Source: Myxococcales bacterium
Lineage (GTDB): Bacteria; Myxococcota_A; Polyangia; Polyangiales; Houyiibacteriaceae
Direction: 5' to 3'
Length of the DNA: 64,000 nt
Assembly (NCBI GenBank): GCA_029862185.1
Contig: JAOTXX010000014.1
Location: 1 to 64,000 of the forward strand
The stretch's first letter is position 1. Every line of letters begins with the position of its first letter. Positions 27,912 to 35,094 of the stretch are shown piece by piece. The notes under the pieces were generated by a model, which did not search any database, had not been told where the DNA came from, and saw only the letters and a program-made list of their open reading frames with translations. The position numbers and the translations under genes are program-made.

Positions 27912-29987
27912 ATGTCCGTTCTTGCCTCGCTCCTGGTTCGCGACCAGGTCATCCCCGTCGATCGCGTCCAAGGAGCCATCCAGGATCAGGTGATGCGCGG
28001 GGGAAATCTCGACACCGTGCTTCTCGAGCTCGGCTTGCTGCGGGAGAACGAAATGAATGCCTATTGCGCGGCGGTGTACGGGCTACTCCCCGCGACGCGC
28101 GATGAGGTGATGCAGACCGCAATCTCCACGATCCGTGTCCTGCCGCGCGAGTTTGCCGTTCGACATCGCTTGATTCCCGTTGCGAGGACCGAAGATGCGG
28201 TCGTACTCGCGGTCGACCGTCCCTTGCCGGATGCCACGCTCCGCGAAATCTCCTTCGAGCTCGGCATCGATCCGGTGCAGCGAATCGTTTGCTCGGTGCG
28301 CGTCGAAGCGGGCCTGGCACTTCACTACGACATCGAGATGACGGCTCGGATGCGGCAGCTCAACCACCAGCTCGAGGCCGCGGACCCCGGCACGATTCCC
28401 TACGTGGCGCCGTTTGAAGGCGTTGGAAGCCGGAGCTCGATCCCGCCGATAAAGGATGGGTCAGGCTCTTTCCCACGTGCCCACTCGTCGATACCCTCGC
28501 CGACGGGCATCGCCGATACCGAGCCGCCCCCCGCCGTGGCGCCGCAGGTGGCCTCTTCGGTTCCGGCGGGCACGTTTCGGGATTCCGATCCCGGGGCAGC
28601 CCGCAGGCACTCGGAGCCGAAGAGCGGTTTCGTCGATGCGACGCGATATAGCCTTCCGCCGCGCCCACCCGAGATCCTCGGACGGCCCTCGATGAGGCAA
28701 AGGAGCTCCCAGCGGCCTTCCGGCCGGAGTGGTCGTACAGCATCGAGGCCAAGCGGGCCGACGAACACATCGCAGCCGGCACCGGCCACGGATTGGCAGC
28801 CTGCGCCGGCACCGGGTTGGCAACCCGCACCCCCGCCCACTCAGCCAGAGTCGGGTTGGCAACCGGCGCCCCCGCCGCGTTCGGCGCATTCCGGGCATCA
28901 TCTTCCCGTCGACCCGCGGCGGGACAACGACGGAAGCGCAATGTCGCACGACGTTGTGTCGTTGCGCCCCGGCGCGCCTAGCTCGGCACCGCCCAATGTC
29001 GACAGCGGGCCGGTCGGCCGGAGGTGGAATCCCGCACCGGCGCCTCTCGTCGACGAGGGCTCGCTCCCGAGCGTCATCGTCGACTTTGGGGAAGAAGTGG
29101 AAGAGCTCGTGGCCGCGCTTCGCGATGGCAGCCCCGAAGACGATATGTTGATCCCACCTCTGTTGGCGCTCGGCGAGGCCGCACTCCCGGCGCTGGCTCG
29201 GGAGTTCCCGGGCGAGCTCTGGTTCGACCGCAACGAGCCGCACGCCAACATCCCGGCGGGCAGGGACGTCTCTCCCATCGCGAGGGCCTTCGTGGCGTTC
29301 GGGGGTCATTCGATCCCGTACTTGATCCCCCTACTCGACAATGAGGACCCGGACATTCGCTACTACGCTTCGGTGATCGCTTCCGAGTTCGTACATCCCG
29401 ACTTGGTGCAGCCCGTTGGTCGTCGTTTGTTCGACACCGACCCGGGAGTCCGCAGCAGTGCGTACCGCGCGCTGAGCGTCCTCTACGCATGCGAGGTCGA
29501 GTTTACCCAGCTCATCGAGCGGCTTCGTGCTTCGGCACGGGATGGCCGAAACGTGGAATCACAGACGGCTTCCATCGACGCCTTGGGAAGGCTGCGCGAC
29601 GCCGAGTCGTTCGAATTCTTCGTTTCCTTGTTGGAAAGCCCAGAGTCCGGCGTGGTCGAGGCTGCTCATGCAAGCCTGGTGCGCCTGAGTTGTCAGGACT
29701 TCAACCGCAGCAAGAAGAAATGGAGTGCCTGGTACGAGAAGCACCGCGTAGAGCACCGTGTGGTCTGGCTGATTAACGCGCTCCTGCACTCCGACGAGCG
29801 CTTGCGTCGGCGCGCCGGTGAAGAGCTCAAACACCTCACCCAGGAGGACTTCGGCTATGAGCCGGGGAAGTCGAAGAAGCTGCGGATCGCTTCGCAGAAG
29901 AAGTATCGGACCTGGTGGGTAGGCGTCGGTTTCCGGATGTTTGTAGAAACACAGCCCGACGGATCTGGTCATGTGTACAGCCGGTGA
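27912..29987 (+). CDS. MshEN-domain protein fused to a HEAT-like repeat domain
   Basis: 691 residues. Residues 1-140 form an MshEN (GspE N-terminal) domain: LLVRDQVIPVDRVQGAIQDQ, LDTVLLELGLLRENEM, and ISTIRVLPREFAVRHRLIPV; some family members bind cyclic di-GMP. Residues about 150-370 are a low-complexity Pro/Ser/Ala/Gln linker with three WQPAP units. The C-terminal third (about 370-691) is HEAT-like: ALGEAALPALAREFPGELW, GHSIPYLIPLLDNEDPDIRYYASV, and it ends with a KKYRTWWVG motif. That region is a paralogue of the protein at 33028-34038. There is no ATPase domain, so it is not a pilus motor. A scaffold or signalling adaptor is likely; inference. Confidence 0.82.
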   Translation: MSVLASLLVRDQVIPVDRVQGAIQDQVMRGGNLDTVLLELGLLRENEMNAYCAAVYGLLPATRDEVMQTAISTIRVLPREFAVRHRLIPVARTEDAVVLAVDRPLPDATLREISFELGIDPVQRIVCSVRVEAGLALHYDIEMTARMRQLNHQLEAADPGTIPYVAPFEGVGSRSSIPPIKDGSGSFPRAHSSIPSPTGIADTEPPPAVAPQVASSVPAGTFRDSDPGAARRHSEPKSGFVDATRYSLPPRPPEILGRPSMRQRSSQRPSGRSGRTASRPSGPTNTSQPAPATDWQPAPAPGWQPAPPPTQPESGWQPAPPPRSAHSGHHLPVDPRRDNDGSAMSHDVVSLRPGAPSSAPPNVDSGPVGRRWNPAPAPLVDEGSLPSVIVDFGEEVEELVAALRDGSPEDDMLIPPLLALGEAALPALAREFPGELWFDRNEPHANIPAGRDVSPIARAFVAFGGHSIPYLIPLLDNEDPDIRYYASVIASEFVHPDLVQPVGRRLFDTDPGVRSSAYRALSVLYACEVEFTQLIERLRASARDGRNVESQTASIDALGRLRDAESFEFFVSLLESPESGVVEAAHASLVRLSCQDFNRSKKKWSAWYEKHRVEHRVVWLINALLHSDERLRRRAGEELKHLTQEDFGYEPGKSKKLRIASQKKYRTWWVGVGFRMFVETQPDGSGHVYSR

Positions 29988-30023: not shown

Positions 30024-32438
30024 GTGCGAATCCCGAGGCTCCTAACCATACTGGGTCCTGCGTCTGTTCTTTACGTTCTGGCCGCGCGGGCCGCTTCGAA
30101 CACCGCCGCCTCCCCGGACTGGTTGGTGGTTTCGCTCTCCCTCGCGTTCTCTTTGACGCCGCTCGCCGTGCTGGGGTCCTGGTCGAGCAGGCGTGGCGCG
30201 TCACGGCTGGCATTCATGGCGGTGAGCCTCGCCATCGCAATTGCGTCCGCGCGCACCAGTTCGCCGCTCCTCGATCTCACACACGACATCGCCTGGCTGC
30301 TCGCAGCGCTGACGATGCTCGACCTCGTCGTGCCGCGCGAGACCGGTTCGCTCGTTCGATACGGCGCCCTCGGAGCTCTCGCGTCGACTGCGTTCGTCGG
30401 GGCCGGCTTGGCGCGCCAGGGGTTGCTTCCGGAAATGACATTTGCGGTCGTGGTGGTCCTCGGGATTCTGGCGACGGGCGCCCTGCACCAAATCGTGCTC
30501 GTGGGCAGAGGACATGTGGTCGAGGGCGGCTTGTCGGGGATCGCGCTGGCCATCCTCGCCGTGGGGCTTGCATACTGCTGGTTCGGTCCGTTCGACGGCG
30601 TGCTCGCCACCACGGTGGAGTTTGGTGTGGCTTCGTTGCTCTGGCTGGGGCACCTCGCCTGGCTCGATCCGGGATGGCGCTCGCTGCGGCGTGTCGGTGT
30701 GCCGGTCGTCATTGCTTCTGCTGTTTGTTTTGCGGTGACGGTGGGCGTTGTTCCCGACGCGCCGCTCGAGCGATGGAAGCTCGGCCTGCTCGCGCTCGGC
30801 TCGGGGGTGCTTTGGTGGCTGACGTTTTCCTTTGCGCGAAGGCTTTCCAATCGCGCCGTATGGAGCACTTCGGGGCGCCTCGCAGACGCGGCGGAAGCCG
30901 CGAGGAGTCGATTGGTCGGAGGCGCGGCACTCGAGGAGGTCGCCACCGGAATTCTCGTGCCCTTCGGCAAGGTCTTCGAGGGTAGCGAAGGGTTCGCGGA
31001 GCTCTACACCTTGGAGCCCTCCCTGAGGCTCCGCCTCGACAGCGGCGAGCGGGCGAATATCAGGCCGGTCAAGGCCCCTGCCACGATCACCCGGACGTTC
31101 TTTGCCGACGGTCACCAGGGGGTTCTTGATCTCGTCAGTCTGCGAGCCCGAGTCGTCCGCGAGGCATCGATTCGAGAGCTCGTCAACACCATGGCAGACC
31201 AAGGGATGGGCTGCGCACTCCCGTGCATGCATCTCGACCACATCGAAGGTGTGCTTCTTCTGCCCCTGGGCGATCGGTCGGAGGCGCTTTCGCGCACCGA
31301 GCTCGACGAGCTTGGACGCTTGGCGGATTCGCTCGGGGGGGCTCTTGCCTCGGCGCTCGCGCAACGCCGGGCCGACACCCACATTCACGAGCTATCCACG
31401 TTGCGGCGTGAGGCGGAAGACCGGATTACGGCGCTCGAGGGGGAGCTCGACCAATTGCGCGGCCAGTGTGACGTGCTCGGACGCGGCCTCGCCGAAGATC
31501 GAACCCTGCACGTGGCGTACAGCCAGTCGATGCGGATTGTGCAGACGCGCGCAATCGAGCTGTCCCCGCTGGCCGATCCGGTTCTACTCGTCGCTCCGGC
31601 CGGCGCTCCGGTGTTGCCTGTCTCCCGCTTCATCCACGACCGCGGGCCGCGCTGGGAGGCACCGTTCGTCGTCGCGGATTGCTCAGCCGCACCGCCCGAT
31701 CAAGTGGCAAGCTTGCTCTTTGGCTCGCAGAGAGAGAGCCGCACGGGTTGGTTTCAGTCGGCCGCGGGTGGGACATTGCTGTTGCGAGACCTTCCAGCGC
31801 TCTCCAAATCAAACCAGGCGCGTCTTGCCGCGGCATTGGCAGAGCAGGGTGCCGAAGAGAACGAGAGCAAAGATCCTCGACCGATGCGCCCAAGGCTCAT
31901 TGCGACCACGCGGGCGTCGCTTGGCGAGCTCGAGCGGCGCGGTGCGCTCGACCCAGAGCTCGCGAGACAATTGACGCGACCAGGTCTCACGATTCCGCCT
32001 TTGCGCGACCGGCGCGAAGACGTTCCATCGCTGGCACTCCTCGCCATTGACCGGGCATGCCGGGTTCTGGCGCGTGAGCCCGTCGGCATCACGGAAGAGG
32101 CGATGGCCGCTCTCGTCGATCACGACTGGCCCGGTGACGTGGCCGAGCTCGAGCTGATCATCGAGCTCGCGGTCGCTGAAGCGTCTTCGAAGACGATCGG
32201 GCTTCGCGACCTGCCCCCGCTCGCTTGGCCCGGGGCCGACGAACAGGAGCCGTTGATCGGTACCTATATCGAAGTCGAGCGCCGTCTCCTCGAACGGACC
32301 CTTCTCCGAGCCGGGGGCAACAAGAGTGAGGCTGCGCGCATGCTGGGCCTGAAGCGTACGACTTTCCTCGACAAGCTTCGGCGTCACGGGCTGGAGCAAC
32401 GCGCGCCGAACGACCTCGGCAGCACGGCGGTTGGCTGA
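30024..32438 (+). CDS. Membrane-anchored NtrC-family protein with degenerate AAA+ domain
   Basis: 804 residues. About eight membrane helices fill residues 1-270. A GAF-like region (about 290-440) and a short coiled coil (about 445-490) follow. Residues about 515-725 align with sigma-54 activator AAA+ domains, but the Walker A slot reads APAGAPVL (524-531), the GAFTGA slot reads SQRESRTG, and Walker B reads GGTLLLRDL instead of LFLDE. Flanking marks remain: LFG, LTIPPLRDRREDVPSL and DHDWPGDVAEL. The C-terminus is an intact Fis-type helix-turn-helix, NKSEAARMLGLKRTTFLDKL. It should bind DNA but cannot hydrolyse ATP or contact sigma-54 normally. GTG start. Confidence 0.85.
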   Translation: MRIPRLLTILGPASVLYVLAARAASNTAASPDWLVVSLSLAFSLTPLAVLGSWSSRRGASRLAFMAVSLAIAIASARTSSPLLDLTHDIAWLLAALTMLDLVVPRETGSLVRYGALGALASTAFVGAGLARQGLLPEMTFAVVVVLGILATGALHQIVLVGRGHVVEGGLSGIALAILAVGLAYCWFGPFDGVLATTVEFGVASLLWLGHLAWLDPGWRSLRRVGVPVVIASAVCFAVTVGVVPDAPLERWKLGLLALGSGVLWWLTFSFARRLSNRAVWSTSGRLADAAEAARSRLVGGAALEEVATGILVPFGKVFEGSEGFAELYTLEPSLRLRLDSGERANIRPVKAPATITRTFFADGHQGVLDLVSLRARVVREASIRELVNTMADQGMGCALPCMHLDHIEGVLLLPLGDRSEALSRTELDELGRLADSLGGALASALAQRRADTHIHELSTLRREAEDRITALEGELDQLRGQCDVLGRGLAEDRTLHVAYSQSMRIVQTRAIELSPLADPVLLVAPAGAPVLPVSRFIHDRGPRWEAPFVVADCSAAPPDQVASLLFGSQRESRTGWFQSAAGGTLLLRDLPALSKSNQARLAAALAEQGAEENESKDPRPMRPRLIATTRASLGELERRGALDPELARQLTRPGLTIPPLRDRREDVPSLALLAIDRACRVLAREPVGITEEAMAALVDHDWPGDVAELELIIELAVAEASSKTIGLRDLPPLAWPGADEQEPLIGTYIEVERRLLERTLLRAGGNKSEAARMLGLKRTTFLDKLRRHGLEQRAPNDLGSTAVG

Positions 32439-32442
32439 GACG

Positions 32443-33027
32443 ATGCAACCGATCCTCCTATGGGACGTGATGGGCACGCTCGTCCACGATCCGTTTTTCG
32501 AGGAGATGCCCGAGTTCTTCGAACTGAGCTTCGAGGAGCTGCTCGCGGTCAAGCATCCAAGCGCCTGGGCCGAGTTCGAGCGGGGGGAACGCAGCGAAAA
32601 GGATTTTCTCGCGAGTTTTTTTGCAGATGGTCGGGATTTCGACCGAGAGGATTTCGTGAGGCGCGTTCGCGCTTCGTACCGATGGCTTCCCGGCCTCGAA
32701 GAGCTTCTCGAGGAGCTTCACGGCGCGGGATGCCGCATGCACGCGTTTTCCAACTACCCGGTTTGGTACAGACTCATCGAAGAACGCCTCAGGCTGTCGC
32801 GGTTTCTCGATTGGACGTTCGTCTCTTGCCTCACTGGGCTACGAAAGCCGGACTCGGCAGCGTACGCACAGGCCTTGGATGCGCTCGGCGTGGCCGGAGA
32901 GCGCTGCGTCTTCATCGATGATCGTGTCGGCAACTGCGAAGCTGCGCGTGATCACAGGATTCACAGCGTGGTGTTCGAAGGGGTCGAGCCCCTGCGCGCG
33001 GCGCTACGGACGGCCGGCGTGCTGTAG
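32443..33027 (+). CDS. HAD-superfamily protein with altered catalytic motif I
   Basis: 194 residues. Motif II (AFSNYP), the motif III Lys (GLRKPDSAAY) and motif IV (VFIDDRVGNCEAA) are normal for subfamily IA. Motif I reads LLWDVMGTLV: the nucleophile Asp is kept but the second Asp, the general acid/base of phosphatases, is Met. Either the enzyme uses another mechanism or it has lost phosphatase activity. The ATG at 32443 follows the NtrC-like gene's stop by four bases, so the two are probably coupled. The stop abuts the convergent HEAT gene with no space. Confidence 0.85.
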   Translation: MQPILLWDVMGTLVHDPFFEEMPEFFELSFEELLAVKHPSAWAEFERGERSEKDFLASFFADGRDFDREDFVRRVRASYRWLPGLEELLEELHGAGCRMHAFSNYPVWYRLIEERLRLSRFLDWTFVSCLTGLRKPDSAAYAQALDALGVAGERCVFIDDRVGNCEAARDHRIHSVVFEGVEPLRAALRTAGVL

Positions 33028-34038
33028 CTATTCGGGGTGGTTCTTTGCCCACCACCGCCGGTAACTCGCCTGGATTGTCAGGAACTGGTCACGGTCCGCC
33101 GTCTCGGACAAGGGCTGCAAGAAGCGGGTCAGATGCCAAAGCTCGCGCGATGCGAGCAAACGAATGTTGGCCCGGCCGTCTCCAAGGCCTTCGATCAGCC
33201 ACTGAATGCGAATTTCGTGACCACGTTCCGATAGCCAGCGGAGCCAAGGGTCCCGCGAAAACCCGAAGTCGTGGGCGGTCAGCACCCTTAGACCGACACG
33301 GCAGGCCGTTGCGATGCCGCGATCGGAGTCAGCCAGCAAATCCACGAACAGGGCCGCCGACGCTTCGTCGCGCAGCTGTGTCAGCGCCGAAATCGCACGG
33401 CGCCGAATAGGGAGCGGCTCAGTGACCTCGGACGCACAGCGGCGCAGCTCGCCGAGGGCGCTTCGGTAGAGCGCTTCATGCTGATAGGCGCTCAGCAAAT
33501 GCAGCGCGACGCGCCGACACTCCCGGTCTTCGTCGAGCGACGCTTGCATCAGCGGCTCGATAAGGCGGGGGCTCGAATACGCCCCGCAGATGACTGCCGC
33601 GTAGTAGCGAACCTTTGGGGTCGGGTGACGCATCAGGCGGGCGAGATATGGGATCGCCTCGCCTTCGAAGGCGGCGAGGGCGGCCGCGATCGCCGAAATT
33701 TCGTCGGGGCGCTGCAGTCGGGAATCCGTGGCCAAGGCTTGGCGCCATAGCGGCCCCGGAAAGCTCTCGGCCAGCTCCTCGAGCGCAAAATTTCCAAGCG
33801 CCATTAGGCGCCTCACCACCGGTGCGATCTCATTGGGGCCGAGAGCGACCAGCTCGTCGACGAGCCTTTGTGCGAGGTCGACGAGGTTTTCCTTGAGGAC
33901 AGGTTGGCTGTCCGAGCCTTGGTCGGCCGACGCGGGCGCCTTGGTGCGGACGCGCGACCCACTATCCTCGGTGCCACCCTCCGGTGCCGCCGGAATGACA
34001 CCCGCGGGTAGCGGGTACTTTCGCCTCGGCCCAGCCAT
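33028..34038 (-). CDS. HEAT-like repeat protein, paralogue of the C-terminal half of the 27912 protein
   Basis: 336 residues. After a basic, Pro-rich N-terminus (GPRRKYPLPAGVIPAAPEGG) comes a helical-repeat domain: VVRRLMALGNFALEELAESF, GEAIPYLARLMRHPTPKVRYY, and a C-terminal SYRRWWAKNHPE. Segment by segment this matches the C-terminal third of the protein at 27912-29987, including the order IPYL, KVRYYA or DIRYYA, the DF segment and the final YR-WW motif. The ATG at 34038 is chosen; an upstream in-frame ATG would cross the divergent oxidoreductase gene. A protein-interaction scaffold is likely. Which partner it binds is unknown; its location invites the two genes it faces. Confidence 0.8.
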   Translation of the reverse strand: MAGPRRKYPLPAGVIPAAPEGGTEDSGSRVRTKAPASADQGSDSQPVLKENLVDLAQRLVDELVALGPNEIAPVVRRLMALGNFALEELAESFPGPLWRQALATDSRLQRPDEISAIAAALAAFEGEAIPYLARLMRHPTPKVRYYAAVICGAYSSPRLIEPLMQASLDEDRECRRVALHLLSAYQHEALYRSALGELRRCASEVTEPLPIRRRAISALTQLRDEASAALFVDLLADSDRGIATACRVGLRVLTAHDFGFSRDPWLRWLSERGHEIRIQWLIEGLGDGRANIRLLASRELWHLTRFLQPLSETADRDQFLTIQASYRRWWAKNHPE

Positions 34039-34119
34039 CGCCTCGGTTATACCAGGACGCCGGCTTTTTTGGTGCGGCTCCCTAGTCTTGTCCTGTTTTT
34101 GCAGGCAAACTTCGGCTTC

Positions 34120-35094
34120 ATGTACAGGATGGTCGTGCGCGAGCTGGGGGGTCCGGGCGCCCTGGAGCGCGAAGAGCTGAGCGAAGTGCACGCTGGCCCG
34201 GGCGAGGTCGTCATCGATGTGAAGGCCGTGGGCTGCAACTTCTTCGACATCCTCATTACGGAAGGCAAGTACCAAGTTAAGCCGGAGCTTCCGTTCTCGC
34301 CCGGCGCCGAGGTCGCCGGAATCGTTCGAACGCTTGGGAAAGGCGTTTCGCGTTTCTCGGTCGGCGACCGCGTGAGCGCCCTACTGGAATTCGGTGGGTT
34401 CACTTCGACCGTGGCCGCGGCTGAAGCACGCGTCTTCCCCATGCCTCCGGAGATGACTTTCGAAGTAGCCGCGGCCCTGGGGCTCGTCTATCAGACCTCC
34501 TACGTCGGTTTGGTGCATCGAGCGAACCTACAGGAAGGCGAAACGGTTCTGGTGCACGCAGCGGCCGGAGGAGTAGGGCTCGCGGCGGTTCAACTCGGCG
34601 TTGCGCTCGGTGCGAAGGTCATCGGCACCGCTGGGACTCCTGAGAAAATCGCCCTCGTGAAAGGGAACGGAGCGCACGAAGTCATCAACTACCGCGAAGA
34701 GGATTGGGTCGAGAGAGTGAAAGCGCTGACCGCGGGACGCGGGGCGGATGTAATCTACGACCCGGTTGGCGGGGACACCTTCGACCTTTCGACCAAATGC
34801 ATCGCGTTCGAAGGAAGGATTTTGGTCATTGGCTTCGCGAGCGGGCGAATCCCATCTGCGAAGATGAACCGCGTCTTGGTGAAAAACTTCTCATTGGTCG
34901 GGCTGCACTGGGGGCTCTACTTCAAGAAGAATCCCAAGGTGATTCAACAAGCCCAGGAAGCCATCGTGGGCCTGCATTCCATGGGGAAAATCGCCCCACT
35001 GGTCTCCGCTACGCATCCTCTCGACGACGCCGAAGCTGCCCTTGTTGCGCTCGGCGGCCGCAAGACGACCGGCAAGGTGATTCTAATCCCCTAG
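34120..35094 (+). CDS. NADPH:quinone oxidoreductase-like medium-chain reductase
   Basis: 324 residues without zinc-ligand Cys clusters. The start region MVVRELGGPGALEREEL, the GCNFFDILI segment, the NADPH-binding AAAGGVGLAAVQLGVALGA and the AGRGADVIYDPVGGD motif define the quinone oxidoreductase branch of the medium-chain family. These enzymes reduce quinones or alpha,beta-unsaturated carbonyls. Start 34120 (MYRMVVREL) is chosen; 34129 is equally possible. It is divergent from the HEAT gene and overlaps the convergent cbiX-like gene by four bases at its stop. A second member of the family is encoded at 36920-37939. Confidence 0.9.
   Translation: MYRMVVRELGGPGALEREELSEVHAGPGEVVIDVKAVGCNFFDILITEGKYQVKPELPFSPGAEVAGIVRTLGKGVSRFSVGDRVSALLEFGGFTSTVAAAEARVFPMPPEMTFEVAAALGLVYQTSYVGLVHRANLQEGETVLVHAAAGGVGLAAVQLGVALGAKVIGTAGTPEKIALVKGNGAHEVINYREEDWVERVKALTAGRGADVIYDPVGGDTFDLSTKCIAFEGRILVIGFASGRIPSAKMNRVLVKNFSLVGLHWGLYFKKNPKVIQQAQEAIVGLHSMGKIAPLVSATHPLDDAEAALVALGGRKTTGKVILIP

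Follow-up and report, generated by a model that had tools for sequence, protein, structure and literature searches.

Several regulators related to the enhancer-binding protein NtrC lack a proper GAFTGA motif, including TyrR, DhaR, HupR, VpsR and YplP (PMC3162934). Rhodobacter capsulatus NtrC as well as Vibrio cholerae VspR and VpsR are ATP-independent or devoid of GAFTGA and act on sigma-70 promoters, and some GAFTGA-less NtrC relatives reportedly need no ATP at all (PMC10274813). Caulobacter NtrC requires its Walker A lysine and Walker B aspartate (PMC10274813), both of which are gone in the protein family described here. FleQ acts at pel via sigma-70 and without ATP hydrolysis (PMC10723142). 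Finally, membrane-bound transcription regulators are widespread (PMC10269533).

The locus analysed here lies in a window of 64,000 nucleotides, i.e., the whole stretch of DNA under study, from a Myxococcales bacterium of the order Polyangiales (assembly GCA_029862185.1, contig JAOTXX010000014.1). An intact ORF with a GTG start (30024..32438, forward strand, as are all features of the protein given below) encodes 804 amino acids, which comprise a membrane domain, a GAF-like domain, a coiled coil, a pseudo-AAA+ core, a lid and a Fis-type helix-turn-helix (HTH). AlphaFold2 models with a mean pLDDT of 80 and 83 display the same architecture, and the orthologues share the start position of the ORF.

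An earlier note on this DNA had proposed a membrane-embedded protein with eight helices. AlphaFold2 models and family-averaged hydropathy agree on the embedding and raise the predicted number to about ten. The membrane domain covers residues 1-278 (30024..30857), and in the models the helices span residues 3-24, 32-49, 56-74, 81-102, 109-131, 139-161, 165-187, 193-214, 216-242 and 250-278. A Foldseek search with the membrane fold returned no significant match. Helices 2-8 align with GPCR-like 7TM arrangements at Z 11-16 (VIA-align), which is borderline for helical bundles, and this likeness may simply reflect a common helical-bundle arrangement.

The GAF-like domain (residues 283-415, 30870..31268) was assigned from alpha/beta elements in the AlphaFold2 models, from Pfam matches to PF01590 (GAF) in 6 of 33 orthologues, and from a profile-profile match to histidine-kinase GAF domains (prob 88, E 2.8e-6, reversed controls null). 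PrsK-type histidine kinases (TIGR02916) likewise combine a multi-helix membrane domain with a subsequent GAF domain, and the GAF regions match; however, their membrane helices have no detectable match to the family, whose output is an NtrC-type module instead of a kinase. We do not infer shared ancestry with the PrsK membrane domain, as the first match (prob 94) came from the GAF region, and in profile-profile comparison the membrane part alone scored prob 0.8% against a PrsK-type kinase, compared to 88% for the GAF part. The GAF-like domain is followed by a 66-residue helix (residues 424-489, 31293..31490), which fits a coiled coil in the AlphaFold2 models and shows a low dN/dS of 0.04-0.08 in the closest pairs. 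Taken together, the GAF domain and the coiled coil resemble a signalling module.

The C-terminal half had been described as related to sigma-54 activators, and Pfam bears this out with matches above the curated cut-offs to Sigma54_activ_2 (residues 503-660, 8.7e-18), Sigma54_activat (499-650, 1.5e-14), AAA_lid_14 (661-737, 3.4e-15) and HTH_8 (750-787, 9.9e-11). An NtrC-type pseudo-AAA+ core (residues 496-660, 31509..32003) precedes the lid (661-737, 32004..32234) and the Fis-type HTH (748-790, 32265..32393), which is intact in the window's lineage, as had been claimed. The best NCBIfam matches of the protein are DhaR, ZraR and NtrX, all far below the cut-offs. The AAA+ region superposes over about 235 residues on the AAA+ domains of LuxO, FlrC, NtrC1 and PspF (VIA-align; Z ~26, rmsd ~2-3.5 A), and its fold also matches FleQ and VpsR.

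The three signatures that the earlier note had reported as lost are missing exactly where it had placed them. Walker A reads APAGAPVL (residues 524-531, 31593..31616), the L1 loop is reduced to the remnant SQRESRTG (568-575, 31725..31748), and Walker B has become LLLRDL (585-590, 31776..31793). The GAFTGA motif is gone from the position given, yet it was deleted and not, as first described, substituted, the loop being about 7 residues shorter than the canonical one. The position of the arginine finger, defined by the motif R-x-D-L in activators (PMC10723142), is occupied by D643 (31950..31952).

To place these losses, we compared 76 family members in one alignment with 15 canonical activators that the window's own genome encodes. 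The Walker A lysine, the Walker B aspartate and glutamate, the arginine finger and the GAFTGA motif are each found in 15/15 canonical activators and in 0/76 family members. The sensor I asparagine is present in 12/15 activators and again in no family member, whereas the sensor II arginine occurs in 15/15 activators and in 21/76 members, the window protein not among them. The losses in the Walker A and GAFTGA columns are thus common to the whole family, and none of the 76 members combines the same architecture with retained motifs, the observation that had been named beforehand as refuting the proposed loss. As the loss is without exception (76/76), it predates the family's last common ancestor, and by the aligned residues the catalytic loss is ancestral. 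Judged from its sequence, the protein lacks every part needed for ATP use or sigma-54 contact, in keeping with the view of an NtrC-derived, ATP-independent regulator. In 69 of the 76 members an aspartate takes the place of the catalytic Walker B glutamate (residues 588-589, 31785-31790), an unusually conserved substitution for a dead site.

The family is a near-universal, single-copy component of the order. Within the genus, 17 genomes carry orthologues at 61-89% identity (fragments in 2 cases), and many further families of the Polyangiales have orthologues at 30-41% identity. Among the 133 genomes of the order with a completeness of at least 90%, a profile of the N-terminal half detected the family in 125, nearly always in one copy. 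Beyond the order, the matches were weak and partial. In one genome that consists of a single contig (G014), the orthologue is split into separate ORFs for residues 1-347 and 345-804 (L018 and L040), which lie about 2 Mb apart; either a rearrangement or a misjoin during assembly could account for this.

The absence of all three signature motifs might also be expected of an artefact or a decaying gene. However, identical losses recur in 76 members from independent assemblies, including those of same-genus genomes, which bears out the claim that sequencing error is not the cause, and the ORFs are intact throughout. Moreover, pairwise dN/dS amounts to 0.13-0.20 for the whole protein and 0.10-0.29 for the pseudo-AAA+ core, and therefore the gene is not decaying; we consider this explanation refuted and its probability negligible. 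For the HTH, pairwise dN/dS is even lower (0-0.12). By these substitution rates the gene is functional and its dead AAA+ domain is under purifying selection.

In the proteins that have it, the HTH is better conserved than any other domain, with a mean identity across the order of 69% compared to 39% for the pseudo-AAA+ domain, which is consistent with binding to a fixed operator. We searched 33 HTH-bearing loci for a shared inverted-repeat operator in 380-bp stretches around the starts (350 bp upstream and 30 bp of the gene), and nothing stood clearly above shuffled controls; the sole excess was GCGCTC-N12-GAGCGC, which occurred in 3 loci against at most 2 in the shuffles. The HTH is absent in 40/40 sampled members of family f12, probably the Polyangiaceae, in 4/4 members of family f7 and in 6/10 members of family f5. 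These proteins keep the membrane domain, the GAF domain and the dead AAA+ domain, and the chain stops shortly past the lid; the DNA retrieved around the HTH-less loci contains no separate HTH ORF. In a FastTree phylogeny of the shared part of the protein the HTH-less proteins form at least two separate groups, and thus the HTH was lost more than once, provided that it is ancestral, as its position and sequence suggest. Many HTH-less orthologues from f12 (L131-L143, L147-L151, L153-L158, L162) end in a short tail rich in arginine and lysine, e.g., RRRRASKAG; such a tail might substitute for the HTH by binding nucleic acid or lipid.

Since the HTH is missing in f12, f7 and part of f5, DNA binding is not the conserved core function of the family. 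The dead AAA+ domain itself appears to be what is kept, and it is probably used as a signal-transmitting scaffold. This pattern bears on the earlier proposal of a membrane tether for DNA, which would serve chromosome organisation rather than gene control. A membrane domain and an HTH in a single chain would suit such a tether, but all sampled f12 members have dispensed with the HTH while keeping the remainder of the protein, and the GAF domain and coiled coil have the character of a signalling module. Given entire family-level lineages devoid of an HTH, we abandon tethering as the conserved function and deem it very unlikely overall.

The explanation we favour, with some confidence, is a one-component regulator that spans the membrane, is based on a dead NtrC-type AAA+ domain and signals without ATP. 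The ten-helix membrane domain, the GAF domain or both would sense a signal, which would then travel along the coiled coil to the pseudo-AAA+ domain. The latter presumably no longer binds or hydrolyses ATP or touches sigma-54, and its fold would be retained as a platform for dimers or oligomers. In the window's lineage, we infer that this platform controls the engagement of a fixed operator by the Fis HTH, so that a sigma-70-type promoter would be either repressed or activated from the membrane. In the HTH-less lineages, the same module would act via a protein partner. The earlier suggestion of a role at sigma-54 promoters finds no support, as the GAFTGA loop is gone and sigma-70 promoters are where the known precedents act (PMC10274813, PMC10723142). 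A TAAGAT/TAAGCT stretch, often followed by GCC, resembles a sigma-70 -10 element; it lies ahead of four orthologues (L022, L023, L024, L164) and recurs where the regulator gene stands alone.

The HTH-less lineages raise the alternative that the dead domain acts through contact with a second protein, which may be a live activator. The conserved function would then be that of a membrane-anchored anti-activator or scaffold: upon a membrane signal, its dead AAA+ domain would either join or sequester other AAA+ proteins, notably live sigma-54 activators, and the HTH would be an accessory that in some lineages aids its placement on DNA. The membrane, GAF and pseudo-AAA+ domains indeed outlast the HTH, whose loss occurred separately at least twice on the tree, and the window's genome encodes RpoN and at least 15 intact activators as possible partners. 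Volz et al. in 2012 reportedly found hetero-oligomers of activators in myxobacteria, which we count in favour of this alternative. On the other hand, the arginine finger is lost in 76/76 members and sensor II in 55/76, and thus the canonical interface to a live subunit, which depends on nucleotide, is impaired; in addition, the HTH is under the strongest constraint wherever it occurs. On balance, we view a conserved protein-protein function as unlikely, albeit a serious contender. A bolder form of this idea, to which we assign a low probability, holds that the family is a near-universal membrane receptor whose output, a dead activator ring domain, is purely a signal-dependent protein partner, DNA binding being optional and repeatedly lost. 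Such a receptor might, for example, capture or poison live activator rings at the membrane.

The genes around the favoured membrane-bound regulator bear on yet another explanation, namely that the pseudo-AAA+ pocket was repurposed for a different nucleotide, e.g., c-di-GMP as in FleQ and VpsR. Upstream, separated by a gap of 36 bp, lies a gene for an MshEN and HEAT-repeat protein (27912..29987, forward strand; Pfam). It is found upstream on the same strand in the genus and in several other families of the order, and the link looks ancestral, though not universal. The MshEN-type domain binds c-di-GMP in MshE, and this neighbour, as well as the fold match to FleQ and VpsR, speaks for a c-di-GMP pocket. 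Yet the arginine after Walker A that FleQ uses, although the window protein has it, occurs in just 25/76 members, and the arginine of the FleQ ExxxR motif is, by eye, a leucine in the window protein. We therefore regard a repurposed pocket as highly improbable. To the eye, the usual c-di-GMP motif in the MshEN domain of the neighbour appears degenerate.

Downstream, a gene for a HAD-type hydrolase (32431..33027, forward strand; Pfam) overlaps the end of the regulator gene by 8 bases and adjoins it across most of the genus. The regulator and HAD genes are flanked by genes for two mutually similar HEAT-repeat proteins (27912-29987 on the forward and 33028-34275 on the reverse strand). Other candidate neighbours were dismissed: Ser/Thr kinase genes occur at 21/62 loci, but a density of about 15-30 kinase candidates per Mb would yield a similar number by chance, and the further neighbours that are conserved in other genera, namely an NAD-dependent DNA ligase, a kinase and an ABC-F protein (named by eye), are lineage-specific.

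Pseudo-enzymes derived from AAA+ motors have rarely been described in bacterial transcription control. Here, one dead AAA+ domain is ancestral to a whole order, always accompanied by one and the same membrane sensor, and persists even where its HTH has been lost. The family represents a natural experiment on the role of the AAA+ domain of enhancer-binding proteins once ATP and sigma-54 have been removed, and it also bears on the question whether a receptor in the membrane can influence activators when no phosphorelay is involved.

With sigma-54 enhancer-binding proteins of the NtrC, NtrX and DhaR type, the family shares the AAA+ fold, the lid and the Fis HTH in the same order. However, it has neither the Walker A and B motifs nor the sensor I, arginine finger and GAFTGA residues of these activators, and it harbours a membrane domain where they have a receiver. 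In the GAFTGA-less NtrC relatives (R. capsulatus and Caulobacter NtrC, VpsR/VspR, TyrR) and in FleQ at pel, the L1/GAFTGA loop is likewise deleted or unused. They control transcription without sigma-54, as is proposed for the family, and the GAFTGA-less relatives keep the AAA+ fold and the HTH, as does the window protein; yet these relatives and FleQ are soluble, in contrast to the membrane-bound family. Transmembrane transcription regulators such as ToxR, CadC and others of their class also unite membrane segments and a DNA-binding domain in a single chain, but over half of them are single-pass (PMC10269533), whereas the family features about ten helices, a GAF domain and a dead AAA+ domain, and some of its orthologues, unlike regulators of the ToxR/CadC type, have no DNA-binding domain. 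The literature searched, which took in few subscription journals, contained no described protein with this combination of features. GAFTGA-less activators and membrane transcription factors are each known already, and the family joins both kinds.
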